A stretch of DNA of 64,000 nt from Actinoallomurus spadix. GTDB taxonomy: Bacteria; Actinomycetota; Actinomycetes; Streptosporangiales; Streptosporangiaceae. This document shows positions 41,935 through 45,219 of the stretch, in pieces. How positions within the stretch are numbered: the first letter of the stretch is position 1; the number at the start of each line of letters is the position of its first letter. The stretch covers positions 62,001-126,000 of the forward strand of contig NZ_JAMXMX010000005.1 of the NCBI RefSeq assembly GCF_024055725.1, given 5' to 3'. Below the pieces are notes generated by a model that was not told where the DNA came from, made no database searches, and worked only from the letters and a program-made list of their open reading frames with translations. The translations under genes were made by a program, and so were the position numbers.

Positions 41935-42678
41935 GTGGCCCCCGACGTTCCCCTGGTCGCGGTGGCCCACGGCAGCCGGGACCCGCGCGCGGCGGCGACG
42001 GTCGAGGAACTTCTCGATCTTGTACGTCGTTCCTCGGGGGTGCGGGTCGTGACCTCGTATCTCGACCACGCTCCCCCGGCACCGGGGCAGGCGCTCGGTG
42101 GTCTCGTCGGAGAGGGGGCCGACGAGGCCGTCGTGCTCCCCCTCCTGCTCACCGCCGCCTATCACAGCAAGACCGACATCCCCGGCGTGCTGCACGAGGC
42201 ACGGGCGGCCCACCCCCGGCTGAGACTCCACTACGGGGCCACACTCGGCCCCCACCCCCTGATGATCGGCGCCCTGGAGCGCCGGCTCGCCGAGGCCGGC
42301 GTCCGGCCGGACCCGGAGACGGCCGTGGTGCTCGCCGCGGCCGGCTCCAGCGATCCGGCCGCGAACGCGACGATCGGCCGGATGGCGCGCGGCTGGCGAG
42401 GCTGGGGCACCGTCGTCCCGGCGTACGCCTCGGCCGCCCGTCCCACGCCCGCGGAGGCCGTACGCGCGCTCTACGCCGCCGGCGCGCGGCGGGTGGTCGT
42501 GGCGTCCTACTTCCTGGCGCCGGGTTTCTTCGCGGACAAGGTGCGGGACGAGGCCCTGGCCGCCGGTGCGGTGGCCGTCTCACCGGCCCTGGGTGCCATC
42601 CCGGAGTTGGCGGAGATCACAGCGCAGCGTTACCGGGAGGCGCTCCTGCGCGCCGCCCCCGTCGCGGTGGCGGGCTGA
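41935..42678 (+). CDS. Sirohydrochlorin chelatase (CbiX/SirB type)
   Basis: 247 aa from GTG 41935 with GGAG 6 nt upstream. Two CbiX half-domains: LVAVAHGSRDPRAAATVEEL and LLTAAYHSKTDIPGVL in the first, LAAAGSSDPAANATIGRMA and ASYFLAPGFFADKV in the second. The metal-binding His are in HGSRD and AYHSK. It inserts iron into sirohydrochlorin to give siroheme, the cofactor of the sulfite reductase in the same operon. Sulfate adenylyltransferase genes, often found nearby, are absent. Confidence 0.9.
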   Translation: MAPDVPLVAVAHGSRDPRAAATVEELLDLVRRSSGVRVVTSYLDHAPPAPGQALGGLVGEGADEAVVLPLLLTAAYHSKTDIPGVLHEARAAHPRLRLHYGATLGPHPLMIGALERRLAEAGVRPDPETAVVLAAAGSSDPAANATIGRMARGWRGWGTVVPAYASAARPTPAEAVRALYAAGARRVVVASYFLAPGFFADKVRDEALAAGAVAVSPALGAIPELAEITAQRYREALLRAAPVAVAG

Positions 42679-42750
42679 GCGACCCGCGACGGCGAGGTCC
42701 GCGATCTCTTCCGGAGTACCGGAACGCCCTGTGCCGTAAGGCTTTTCGAC

Positions 42751-42810
42751 TGATCACGAATTCCGCGATCTTTATCGGATCACATGAATTCGATCACCAG
42801 AATTCGATCA
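42751..42810. repeat. AT-rich repeat cluster upstream of the riboswitch promoter
   Basis: GAATTCGATCA occurs at 42786-42796 and 42800-42810 (14-bp step); an inverted relative, TGATCACGAATTC, starts at 42751. CGATCTTT occurs twice in flanking positions. AT content is far above the surroundings. Confidence 0.6.
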
Positions 42811-42865
42811 TAAAGCGATCTTTTATTCCGGCAAACCATGTGAGCCATGTCGCAAACCTAGGTAT

Positions 42866-42894
42866 TTGGTCGACCGATATTTGTCTGCTATGTT
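42866..42894 (+). promoter_or_regulatory. Promoter of the riboswitch-CHAP unit
   Basis: TTGGTC (42866-42871), a 17-bp spacer and TATGTT (42889-42894) preceded by TGC (extended -10). Transcription from about 42901 would give a leader of nearly 600 nt. Confidence 0.6.
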
Positions 42895-43033
42895 CCCACT
42901 AAGCCCGGAGGGACGCCCCCCATGCGCCCCCCGGACACCCGCCGGCGGCGGCCGGCCCACCAGCGCAGACGGCGCGGCGCGAAGACGCGTGAGGGCCTCC
43001 GTACAGAGCCGAGACGGTTCATATCCAAAGGAC

Positions 43034-43079
43034 GCCGCTCCCGCGGAGTATCCCTCCATCCACATGGAGCGGGAGCGGC
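43034..43079 (+). repeat. 10-bp inverted repeat before the first aptamer
   Basis: GCCGCTCCCG (43034-43043) and CGGGAGCGGC (43070-43079) form a perfect stem around a 26-nt loop, ending just where the first aptamer begins. Confidence 0.6.
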
Positions 43080-43216
43080 AACGTCGAGTCCGTGAGATCA
43101 CGGAGCCGGGGACCCACGAGCAGTCCCGGGGTGAATCGGTACACCTGTCGTACCGTAGGGCGACTTCCACGCCCGAACCCGTCAGCTAACCCGGTAGGCG
43201 TACTGGAAGTAAGGAG
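43078..43216 (+). ncRNA. ydaO-type c-di-AMP riboswitch, copy 1
   Basis: Conserved blocks in order: CCGGGGACCCAC, GGGGTGAATC, CGTAGGGCGACTTCC, CGCCCGAACCCGTCAGCTAA and CCCGGTAGGCG. These match the ydaO/yuaA (c-di-AMP) class; GAACCCGTCAGCTAACC is its hallmark. The 3' end merges with AAGGAG (43211-43216), suggesting control of translation or of a closely following switch. Confidence 0.85.
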
Positions 43217-43223
43217 TCAGAAC

Positions 43224-43265
43224 TTGTCCGCGAATCTCAGGACCTTGTCCACGAGTCTTCCCTGA
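43224..43265 (+). CDS. 13-aa frame after riboswitch copy 1 (relic or uORF)
   Basis: AAGGAG stands 7 nt before TTG TCC, copying the arrangement at the CHAP gene (AAGGAG, 9 nt, GTG TCC). The frame stops after MSANLRTLSTSLP. It may be a short regulatory frame or the leftover start of a lost gene copy. Confidence 0.35.
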   Translation: MSANLRTLSTSLP

Positions 43266-43349
43266 TCTGAATAGCCGGTCGTCCTCCCTCCCCTGGGACC
43301 GCCACGACCAGACCCTGTCTCTTTGTTCGTGCCGTCCGCGCAAGCGGGC

Positions 43350-43477
43350 GACCCGCTGAATCCGCACCTCGCGGAACCGGGGACCCACCGCATTTGGGGT
43401 GAATCGGCACTCTCGTGCCGTAGGGCAGCTTCCACGCCCGAACCCGTCAGCTAACCCGGTAAGCGGCATGGAAGCCG
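43350..43477 (+). ncRNA. ydaO-type c-di-AMP riboswitch, copy 2
   Basis: Blocks CGCTGAATCCGC, CCGGGGACCCACC, TTGGGGTGAATC, CGTAGGGCAGCTTCC, CGCCCGAACCCGTCAGCTAA and CCCGGTAAGCGG match the class and copy 1. The end lies next to AAGGAG (43478-43483), the ribosome site of the CHAP gene. In actinomycetes this class usually controls cell-wall hydrolase genes, as here. Confidence 0.92.
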
Positions 43478-43492
43478 AAGGAGTACCCCCAC

Positions 43493-44245
43493 GTGTCCCC
43501 TCGACACGCCACATCCCGCTTCACCTCGAAGAGGAAGTGCCTCACCGGCCTCGTCGCCGGAGCCGTCACCGCCGGTGCGGCCGCGATGACCGTCGTGAGC
43601 GCAGGGCCCGCGCTGTCCGCGCAGACACCCACCGCGTCCCGTCCCGCCGCCCACCAGGCCGAGCAGGTACCCGTACCGCGTACGGGTAAGGCGCTACACG
43701 CCCGCCCCGTGGGCAACGACCCGCGCGTCAAGATGCACGCCGTCGCCGAGCAGAAGAAGAAGCTGCCCACCGCCGCGGACGTCCTGAAACTCGCGGAGTC
43801 CCAGGTCGGGACGACCGAGAACGCCACCGGCAGCAGCAAGTTCAACCAGTGGTTCATGACCACTCCGTACGCCAAGGCCGGCGTCGCCCGCTACGGCGGC
43901 TCCGTCAGCGACTACGCCAACGCGTCCTGGTGCGACATGTTCGTCACCTGGGTCGGCGACACTCTCGGCGTCAAGGGCATGGGCGGTGACGCGTTCACCC
44001 CCGGTCACGCCAAGTGGTTCGCCTCGCAGGGCCGCTGGGGCAGCACGCCGAAGCCCGGCGCGGTCGTCTTCTTCTCCTGGAACGGCGGCGGCATCGACGG
44101 CATCGACCACGTCGGCCTGGTCGTCAAGGACAACCACGACGGCACCATCCAGACTATCGAGGGCAACACGGACGACGCCGTGAAGGTCCGGACGCGGAGC
44201 ACCTCCACCGTCGTGGGCTACGGCTACCCGGATTACCAGCAGTAA
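43493..44245 (+). CDS. Secreted CHAP-domain peptidoglycan hydrolase
   Basis: 250 aa from GTG 43493. Signal peptide (basic RFTSKRKC, hydrophobic GLVAGAVTAGAAAMTVVSA, cleavage near LSA-QT), then a linker. The CHAP amidase/endopeptidase domain follows, with catalytic Cys in ASWCDMFVTWV, His in GIDHVGLVV and an acidic/Asn residue in IEGNTDD. It would cut peptide cross-links in the cell wall. The c-di-AMP riboswitch directly upstream ties wall remodelling to turgor and potassium signalling. Confidence 0.92.
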   Translation: MSPRHATSRFTSKRKCLTGLVAGAVTAGAAAMTVVSAGPALSAQTPTASRPAAHQAEQVPVPRTGKALHARPVGNDPRVKMHAVAEQKKKLPTAADVLKLAESQVGTTENATGSSKFNQWFMTTPYAKAGVARYGGSVSDYANASWCDMFVTWVGDTLGVKGMGGDAFTPGHAKWFASQGRWGSTPKPGAVVFFSWNGGGIDGIDHVGLVVKDNHDGTIQTIEGNTDDAVKVRTRSTSTVVGYGYPDYQQ

Positions 44246-44256
44246 TCCAACCGTCG

Positions 44257-44292
44257 GCGCGTGCCGCGCGCCGCGGGCGACGCGGCACGCGC
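44257..44292 (+). terminator. Hairpin after the CHAP gene
   Basis: GCGCGTGCCGCG / CGCGGCACGCGC, a perfect 12-bp stem with a 12-nt loop, 11 nt after the stop codon. Confidence 0.7.
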
Positions 44293-44385
44293 GACCTCAC
44301 CCTCCCGGACTCGTCTCCGGATCTCTCTCACCCCTTCCCCGGTAACCCCATGCCCTCATCCCCTCATGCCCCCGAAAGGAAAGCG

Positions 44386-45015
44386 ATGATCAGGTTCTCG
44401 GCCAAGGCCATCGCCAGCGTCGCCGCCGGAGTCACCCTCGCCGGCGCCGGCGTGACCACCGCCCTCACCTACGGGGGCACCTCGGAGGCGGCGTCGTCGC
44501 CCCAGGCGCAGAGCGCCCCGGCGAAGACCTCGCAGCAGGCACCCGCGCAGACCGAGAAGCGGGCCCAGAGCGCCGCGCAGGACCGGATGCTCCTGTCGGT
44601 CAAGAAGGACAAGGACCCTAAGACGAAGGCGGCCAAGGCCCCGGCCCTGCCGACCGGCGTCTCCACCGCGACCTCCTTCTGGGACCCGGCGACGGCGTCG
44701 GGCAAGCCGATGGCGTACGAGACGATCGCCAGCCCGTACTGGCCGCTCGGAACGAAGGTGAAGGTCACCTACAACGGCAAGAGCGAGATCGGGATCGTCC
44801 AGGACTTCGGCCCGGCGGAGTGGGCGGTCGCCCAGCACAACCCGCCGGCGCTCATCGACCTGTCGGAGAAGATGATGAAGCACCTCACCGGCACCGCGTC
44901 GAACTCGATCACGGTCAAGTTCCAGGTGCTGGAGCTGGGCAAGGGCCCCGTGTACCGCCACTCGGGAACCGGCTACTCCACGGCGACCGGCACCGTCAAG
45001 GCCGACAAGGCGTGA
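44386..45015 (+). CDS. Secreted RlpA-like double-psi beta-barrel protein
   Basis: 209 aa from ATG 44386 behind GAAAGGA. Signal peptide (FSAKAIASVAAGVTLAGAGV), a Gln/Ala/Lys-rich linker, then a barrel: TSFWDPATASGKPMAYETIA, PYWPLGTKVKVTYNGKS, VQDFGPAEW and ALIDLSEKMMKHL (the Asp of the RlpA active site is in IDLS). RlpA/expansin-like domains bind or cleave peptidoglycan. Located after the CHAP gene, beyond a terminator, it may be partly co-transcribed under the riboswitch. Confidence 0.85.
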   Translation: MIRFSAKAIASVAAGVTLAGAGVTTALTYGGTSEAASSPQAQSAPAKTSQQAPAQTEKRAQSAAQDRMLLSVKKDKDPKTKAAKAPALPTGVSTATSFWDPATASGKPMAYETIASPYWPLGTKVKVTYNGKSEIGIVQDFGPAEWAVAQHNPPALIDLSEKMMKHLTGTASNSITVKFQVLELGKGPVYRHSGTGYSTATGTVKADKA

Positions 45016-45072
45016 TCACGGCACACAAGGACACCGGCACGGCGTAACCCGCTCCCCCTCGCCTGCCGGCCG

Positions 45073-45107
45073 AACGGCGCGGGATCCCCTCGGGATCCCG
45101 CGCCGTT
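45073..45107 (+). terminator. 16-bp terminator hairpin
   Basis: AACGGCGCGGGATCCC / GGGATCCCGCGCCGTT with a 3-nt loop, 57 nt after the RlpA-like stop. One of the longest perfect stems in the window. Confidence 0.85.
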
Positions 45108-45219
45108 GCCGTTGCGCGCTACTCGCCCGCCGGAAGGCGTGCGACGCTCACCGGAAAGGCGTTGCACCGCTCGCCGGTGCACGCTTGCCGGAAGGAGTGA
45201 ACTGAGATTCAATCCTTAT

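Follow-up and report, generated by a model that had tools for sequence, protein, structure and literature searches.

Two c-di-AMP aptamers in one leader ahead of a CHAP-domain gene across the genus Actinoallomurus

We found that the leader of a CHAP hydrolase gene in Actinoallomurus spadix holds two complete aptamers of the c-di-AMP (ydaO/yuaA) class, followed by the gene on the same (+) strand. Actinoallomurus is a genus of soil actinomycetes, and the whole stretch of DNA analysed here, 64 kb in length, is called the window. Judged by its sequence, the locus carries a c-di-AMP doublet that belongs to a known kind and holds throughout the genus; less usual is the layout after the first aptamer (copy 1). 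We propose, with close to even confidence, that two c-di-AMP OFF checkpoints could stand in series in one mRNA leader ahead of a wall hydrolase.

The doublet and its leader

The cmscan search of the whole window gave exactly two matches above the gathering score of any family, and both belonged to RF00379 (gathering score, 38 bits); across the 64 kb, every other Rfam family stayed below its cut-off. Copy 1 lies at 43072..43214 (+ strand, 82.0 bits, E 1.6e-17) and copy 2 at 43344..43479 (+ strand, 92.1 bits, E 2.4e-20), and both are full length (model positions 1-134 of 134). Thus, two complete aptamers of the same class share one leader before one gene, which is a tandem arrangement. Two tandem ydaO riboswitches had been proposed in a sequence-only reading of this DNA, and the covariance-model scan that it suggested as a check indeed scores two regions, not one. 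The stretch marked in that reading begins at the putative promoter (42866), while the aptamers themselves begin at 43072. Chance similarity or a single copy is ruled out by the two full-length matches. In addition, an assembly duplicate is ruled out because the copies differ (81% identical over 122 nt) and the doublet recurs in other assemblies.

Both window copies contain GAACCCGTCAGCTAACC and three further conserved blocks, so the hallmark and the other class blocks claimed for them are all present. Furthermore, the ligand-core blocks picked from the RF00379 consensus line of the window scan (GGGGACCC, GGGGUGAAUC, GUAGGGC, and GCCCGAACCCGUCAGCUAACC) were all found in both copies. A pseudoknot between a loop and the 3′ tail is a feature of the c-di-AMP riboswitch class. 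In copy 1, the loop strand ACUUCCA (43163..43169, + strand) pairs over 7 bp with the 3′ strand UGGAAGU (43204..43210, + strand), which adjoins the ribosome site. Absence of this pairing from copy 1 had been named as a possible refutation, and the pairing is there. In copy 2, GCUUCCA (43428-43434) pairs with UGGAAGC (43469-43475), again over 7 bp on the + strand, and the outer pair is A-U in copy 1 and G-C in copy 2. In both copies, AAGGAG and then a start codon come after the 3′ pseudoknot strand, and the endings are as originally read. After copy 1, the Shine-Dalgarno (SD) sequence AAGGAG (43211..43216, + strand) stands 7 nt before the TTG TCC of a short upstream frame (TTG at 43224). After copy 2, the AAGGAG of the CHAP gene (43478..43483, + strand) sits 2 nt 3′ of the pseudoknot strand and 9 nt before GTG TCC (GTG at 43493).

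The gene itself (43493..44245, + strand, GTG start) encodes a CHAP-domain protein of 250 aa (PF05257, E 2.1e-12), which is probably a secreted cell-wall hydrolase, its secretion and hydrolase role being taken from the family. Among the loci found by searching with the CHAP protein, those with the gene order of the window (CysH, CbiX, CHAP, DPBB) are Actinoallomurus. A second gene that is probably wall-acting (44386-45012, DPBB/lytic transglycolase-like) lies 140 nt 3′ of the CHAP gene; its DPBB match (PF03330, E 2.3e-6) is slightly below the curated cut-off. A DPBB relative is also found downstream of CHAP in the Actinomadura loci L031-L037.

A putative promoter was read from the letters at 42866..42894 (+ strand): TTGGTC (42866-42871), 17 nt, and TATGTT (42889-42894) with TGC before it (extended −10). 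At this place, six of the seven orthologous leaders have TGCTATGTT and the leader of genome G005 has TGCTATCGT, and two related leaders of the CHAP paralog chap2 carry TGCTATGTT and TGCTAAGTT at the corresponding place. The putative promoter is missing from the output of a consensus promoter scan, and the same scan, which thus missed the putative main promoter, listed none between the two aptamers.

Meanwhile, a structured element 5′ of copy 1 (42908..43032, + strand) is conserved in all seven orthologous leaders with 79% mean column identity. It ends in GCCGAGACGGTTCATATCC, is present at the CHAP locus in 7 of the 8 genus genomes, and has 28 predicted pairs, five of which changed on both sides. 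No Rfam family matched it above cut-off, and the idea of a third ydaO copy was rejected, as there was no RF00379 match even at E up to 10. Of 150 family genomes, a covariance model of the element matched 5, and these are precisely the Actinoallomurus in the sample.

The chap2 leaders (L002 1779-1903 and L022 2492-2573, both − strand) contain a diverged relative of this element. This relative scored 26.0 bits (R1; E 0.0033) in the window's genome (G000) and only 17.0 bits in G004. Its alignment with the 5′ element scored 102 against a shuffle maximum of 62 in G000 and 93 against 75.5 in G004 (500 shuffles each). Besides a similar −10, the chap2 leader has one aptamer and an SD-spaced ATG frame of 6 codons. 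Among three chap2 leaders, this frame occurs in G000 and G004, with no recognised aptamer before it, and not in G003. The similarity between the CHAP and chap2 mid-leaders (between the end of copy 1 and the start of copy 2) was not significant: 31.0 against a shuffle mean of 24.4 (sd 4.2, maximum 41) in G000, and 29.5 against 23.6 (sd 4.3, maximum 44.5) in G004. Thus, we claim no homology for the short upstream frames of CHAP and chap2.

Conservation within and beyond the genus

Eight Actinoallomurus genomes (G000-G007) were compared, and six of them had two RF00379 matches above the cut-off at the CHAP locus. The scores of copy 1 and copy 2 were 82 and 92.1 bits in G000, 80 and 88.9 in G003, 79.1 and 88.9 in G004, 56.2 and 90.6 in G005, 41.1 and 88.9 in G007, and 39.1 and 85.3 in G001. 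In G002, copy 2 scored 89.4 bits, and copy 1 was below the Rfam cut-off and visible only in the alignment. Copy 1 of G001 was unlisted by a faster scan and listed at 39.1 bits by another. A CHAP ortholog was not found in G006 (87% complete, 500 contigs), in which the two matches were 46% and 36% identical. Counting copy 1 of G002 from the alignment, both copies occur in all seven species having the locus, so the two aptamers in series described for the window hold at the same locus throughout. A comparison with sister genomes for a gene after copy 1 had also been suggested. None was present between the copies in the seven loci, in which the counterpart of 43224-43345 spans 88-122 nt.

The two copies are conserved unequally. 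In copy 2, all seven species have the four ligand-core blocks exactly as in the window. The core of copy 1 is intact in three (G000, G003, and G004) and altered in G005, G007, G001, and G002, most of all in G002. Pairwise distances among G001, G002, and G007 were 0.14-0.15 in the 5′ element, 0.24-0.38 in copy 1, and 0.07-0.10 in copy 2 (between G007 and G002, 0.15, 0.38, and 0.10, respectively). Among G000, G003, and G004, they were 0.03-0.14, 0.05-0.11, and 0.03-0.05. Thus, in the species in which copy 1 decays, the 5′ element is the slower-evolving of the two. These comparisons point to a clear evolutionary asymmetry, with copy 2 held constant and copy 1 eroding in part of the genus. Over the seven species, the predicted pairs of copy 1 are kept in 92.4% of cells, a percentage equalled by 28 of 500 shuffles. 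Double-sided changes affect four pairs, compared with 0.8 in the shuffles, of which 1 in 500 gave as many; the number of further pair types was equalled by 203 of 500 shuffles. In one short helix just 53.8% of cells are paired, and in the pseudoknot 83.3%.

To describe the distribution beyond the genus, the CHAP protein was searched against genome contigs, which gave 24 loci, and cmscan was run on 23 of them (all except L046). At least one RF00379 match was found in 20 of the 23 loci, and none by cmscan in L026, L027, and L041. Two matches were found in three loci, all from Actinoallomurus (L024, L025, and L028), and 15 matching loci from Actinomadura, Sphaerisporangium, and Nonomuraea have one aptamer each. 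In the 14 of these single-aptamer relatives that were inspected (all except L039), a GGAG-type ribosome site and the start of a long ORF follow in every case, the first start codon lying 4-16 nt after the end of the aptamer match. RF00379 matches occur in at least 98 of 150 family genomes, among the best 150 matches listed.

The sequence-only reading had called tandem aptamers of this class ahead of a wall hydrolase unusual. By pattern search among 345 genomes of the order, two hallmark sets at about the window's spacing occur in 4, each of them an Actinoallomurus; the gap range used just misses the window's own doublet. In a sample of 394 genomes of the class, in which G000 is the sole Actinoallomurus, the pattern had no match at the shorter spacing and a single one, that of the window, at the longer. 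These searches demand exact hallmarks and set spacings, and thus understate other doublets. On the literature side, the phrase "tandem c-di-AMP riboswitch" occurs only in PMC9481103 among the literature searched, and a search for Actinoallomurus with riboswitch gave nothing relevant by title. However, 77 c-di-AMP doublets are already published; a terminator seems to separate the two aptamers in most of them and to be lacking in some (PMC9481103). The arrangement is thus unusual by the exact-hallmark patterns, which only Actinoallomurus showed, and familiar for the class.

A tree was built from a selection of 40 aptamers; the sequences are short and the resolution is weak, and copy 1 of G001 was entered one base off its scan position. 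Copy 2 grouped with the aptamers of chap2 and two Nonomuraea CHAP aptamers (bootstrap 86). The copies 1 grouped together with the aptamer C33a of the window's genome, with a support of only 54, apart from copy 2. Since copy 2 groups apart from copy 1, it is unlikely to have been duplicated recently within the genus. The earlier suggestion that a leader and its gene were duplicated and the first gene then collapsed meets a mixed result. The TTG TCC after copy 1 resembles the GTG TCC of several CHAP paralogs, but there is no gene between the copies in seven species, and copy 2 groups apart from copy 1.

Two further aptamer pairs were observed in G000 (C10 29499-31105 and C33 402226-404881; loci L003, L005, L006, and L007). 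Their aptamers are about 1.5 and 2.5 kb apart, with an ORF after each. In L005 near 1501, the SD after aptamer C33a is followed by CTG TCT, which is a possible CTG start.

The short frame, the linker, and competing explanations

Between the ribosome site at the end of copy 1 and the main gene, the window has a short ORF. This upstream frame (uORF; 43224..43265, + strand) starts with TTG and has 13 codons and a TGA (43263-43265). We compared the seven species for frames that reach a stop within 15 codons and are preceded, at a distance of 4-12 nt, by a sequence resembling a ribosome site, the accepted site spellings being of our own choosing. An SD-spaced short frame occurs at the aligned place in five of the seven leaders: TTG and 13 codons in G000, TTG and 6 codons in G003 and G004, and ATG, 6 codons, and TAG in G001 and G002, whose ribosome sites are weak. 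G005 has just a CTG, and G007 has none. Start and stop codons change between the TTG...TGA and ATG...TAG versions with the frame kept, and the 21 extra nt of G000 relative to G003 and G004 also preserve the frame. The 13-codon frame of G000 contains an imperfect in-frame repeat, TTGTCCGCGAATCT / TTGTCCACGAGTCT, and the extra 21 nt are missing in G003 and G004. In shuffled linkers, a frame of this kind arose in 0.067-0.107 of cases per leader. Because the seven leaders are related, so that the counts are not independent, and because the ribosome-site spellings were chosen, conservation of the uORF in five of seven leaders is suggestive and not significant. Furthermore, G002 retains its ATG uORF although copy 1 is unrecognisable there, so the presence of the uORF is not tied to that of the aptamer. 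The proposal that a short frame couples the two copies thus gains mildly from the recurrence and the kept frame, and loses from the leaders of G007 and G005.

The linker between the copies has a mean identity of 57% with few invariant columns. A GC-rich hairpin, H1 (GGUCGU...ACGACC, 43277..43309, + strand), starts 11 nt 3′ of the uORF stop in the window, is followed by AGACCCUGUCUCUUUGUU, and appears in all seven leader folds, with U-A to C-G exchanges in its stem between species, read by eye. RNAalifold did not recover H1 on the automatic linker alignment, and a scripted search for the single best hairpin chose other hairpins in G005 and G007; individual folds were used instead. The folding z-scores of the linkers range from −4.06 to −0.58 (G000, −1.89; G005, −0.58). 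A second hairpin, H2 (43333..43350, + strand), just 5′ of copy 2, folds in G000, G003, G004, G007, G001, and G002 and is broken up in G005. Before copy 2 there is a T-rich stretch, reaching 6 T per 8 nt in G000, G003, and G004, while the other four leaders have 5; in the first three, a small second hairpin also follows H1. The bases right after H1 are not U-rich. A consensus scan of the window found no + strand terminator in 42650-45200, and the sole terminator-like site there is on the other strand, inside the CHAP gene. In the G000 fold, the first ribosome site may pair with the pyrimidine tract; judged by eye, this possible pairing is poorly kept in the other species compared (all but G003).

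Ribosome sites lie 3′ of both copies, H1 is found in all seven folds, and the window has no canonical terminator. The expression platform is probably translational, since the single-aptamer relatives share the layout of aptamer, ribosome site, and start codon. However, as transcription termination has been reported for Streptomyces rpfA (PMC10117811), we only infer a translational platform here.

The two checkpoints could work as follows. Copy 2 would be a translational switch, in which the bound aptamer and the pseudoknot helix keep the ribosome off the CHAP gene; the pseudoknot helices end 0-2 nt before the ribosome site. Copy 1 would place the same block on the ribosome site of a uORF of 6-13 codons, an action taken by analogy with the riboswitch-uORF leaders of Mycobacterium tuberculosis. 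At low c-di-AMP, the uORF would be translated, and ribosomes covering the leader would hinder H1, as would a terminating ribosome at the uORF stop, 11 nt before H1, so that elongation into the CHAP gene would be favoured. At high c-di-AMP, the uORF would be silent, H1 would form, and the pyrimidine-rich untranslated leader would be exposed to Rho or decay, a Rho step suggested by one short pyrimidine-rich stretch. The two steps would multiply and give a steeper response. Copy 1 would be an accessory, dispensable in the part of the genus where its core is altered or lost and copy 2 stays constant. Since the core of copy 1 is altered in four of seven species, by sequence the first step cannot be important genus-wide. 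The missing uORF of G007, the lone CTG of G005, and the weak ribosome sites of G001 and G002 also count against the uORF step. It is doubtful, though worth stating, that uORF translation gated by copy 1 decides whether polymerase passes or stops at H1 and the pyrimidine-rich stretch, through Rho or H1 itself, with copy 2 gating translation of the hydrolase.

Copy 1 might instead be a functionless relic of an earlier riboswitch and gene unit, or of a duplicated leader, whose gene was lost and whose aptamer is eroding. We regard this as a serious rival, though on the unlikely side. Within the group of G001, G002, and G007, copy 1 has diverged faster than either copy 2 or the 5′ element, which fits such a history, as does the match of TTG TCC to the GTG TCC with which several CHAP paralogs begin, and loss of the first gene in the two other aptamer pairs of G000, each with an ORF, would yield a doublet. 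However, the core of copy 1 is intact in G000, G003, and G004, and no gene lies between the copies in any of the seven species. The kept pairs and the four double-sided changes also speak against a relic, with the caveat that 28 of 500 shuffles reached the paired percentage and 203 of 500 the further pair types.

A weak terminator between the copies is a serious rival to two checkpoints. Here the doublet would be of the classical pseudo-cooperative type, a reading that we think improbable: copy 1 would control transcription through H1 as a non-canonical terminator, copy 2 would control the gene, and the short frame would be incidental. H1 stands at the same place in every fold, with compensating stem changes by eye, and the T-rich stretch is found in all seven leaders; this stretch raises the terminator slightly and lowers the two checkpoints slightly. 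In addition, most published doublets apparently have a terminator between the aptamers (PMC9481103), and the rpfA report points the same way. Nevertheless, the consensus scan showed no terminator-like site between the copies in the window, the bases directly 3′ of H1 are not U-rich, RNAalifold missed H1, and linker folding is ordinary in G005 and only mildly unusual in G000. Finally, the two copies could form one obligate joint unit, as has been raised for doublets without a strong terminator (PMC9481103). This is very improbable, since copy 1 decays while copy 2 stays, which an obligate joint unit does not allow, and the linker has few invariant columns.

Comparison with known systems

Why bacteria stack two sensors for one signal is an open question, and a 2022 review in RNA Biology noted that the mechanisms of c-di-AMP doublets merit more study (PMC9481103). 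Like the published doublets, the locus described here has two ydaO aptamers, one leader, and one gene, and some of those doublets also apparently have no strong terminator between the copies. It differs from them in the ribosome site at the end of each copy and in the short frame after copy 1; the words Actinobacteria, Streptomyces, cell wall, and uORF do not occur in the main text of that review. The genus offers a natural series, with three species in which both cores are intact, one intermediate, and three with a decayed copy 1. As the series shares the gene and the second aptamer, a dose-response comparison would show what the first aptamer adds.

The nlpC leader of Corynebacterium glutamicum is alike in having a ydaO-type aptamer before a wall peptidase and no canonical terminator, and its regulation is most likely at translation (PMC9960051). 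It differs in having a single aptamer, and the part of that paper covered describes no uORF and does not mention "tandem". Streptomyces rpfA is alike as an actinomycete wall hydrolase under c-di-AMP OFF control. It differs in the premature transcription termination reported for it, and no tandem is mentioned in the covered part of PMC10117811.

The closest layouts with a uORF come from Mycobacterium, in which riboswitch-controlled uORFs have been published for B12 and Mg2+ (PMC12810186, PMC11260477). The Mbox of M. tuberculosis has its ribosome site at the aptamer's end and controls a uORF, combining a translational platform with Rho-dependent termination (PMC12810186), and two B12 riboswitches of this species have leaders with a uORF (PMC11260477). 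These leaders resemble the present one in that a riboswitch adjoins a short uORF, translated there and predicted here. They differ in their ligands, and no second aptamer of the same class between uORF and gene is described in the covered parts of these papers. Literature searched for c-di-AMP with uORF gave no c-di-AMP riboswitch with a uORF. If copy 1 does decide polymerase passage through the uORF and copy 2 gates the hydrolase, this would be the first known c-di-AMP switch acting via a uORF, within the literature searched, and it would come with a natural species series of loss of the first gate. Thus, uORF control by a riboswitch, described in Mycobacterium for other ligands, may extend to c-di-AMP and wall hydrolases.
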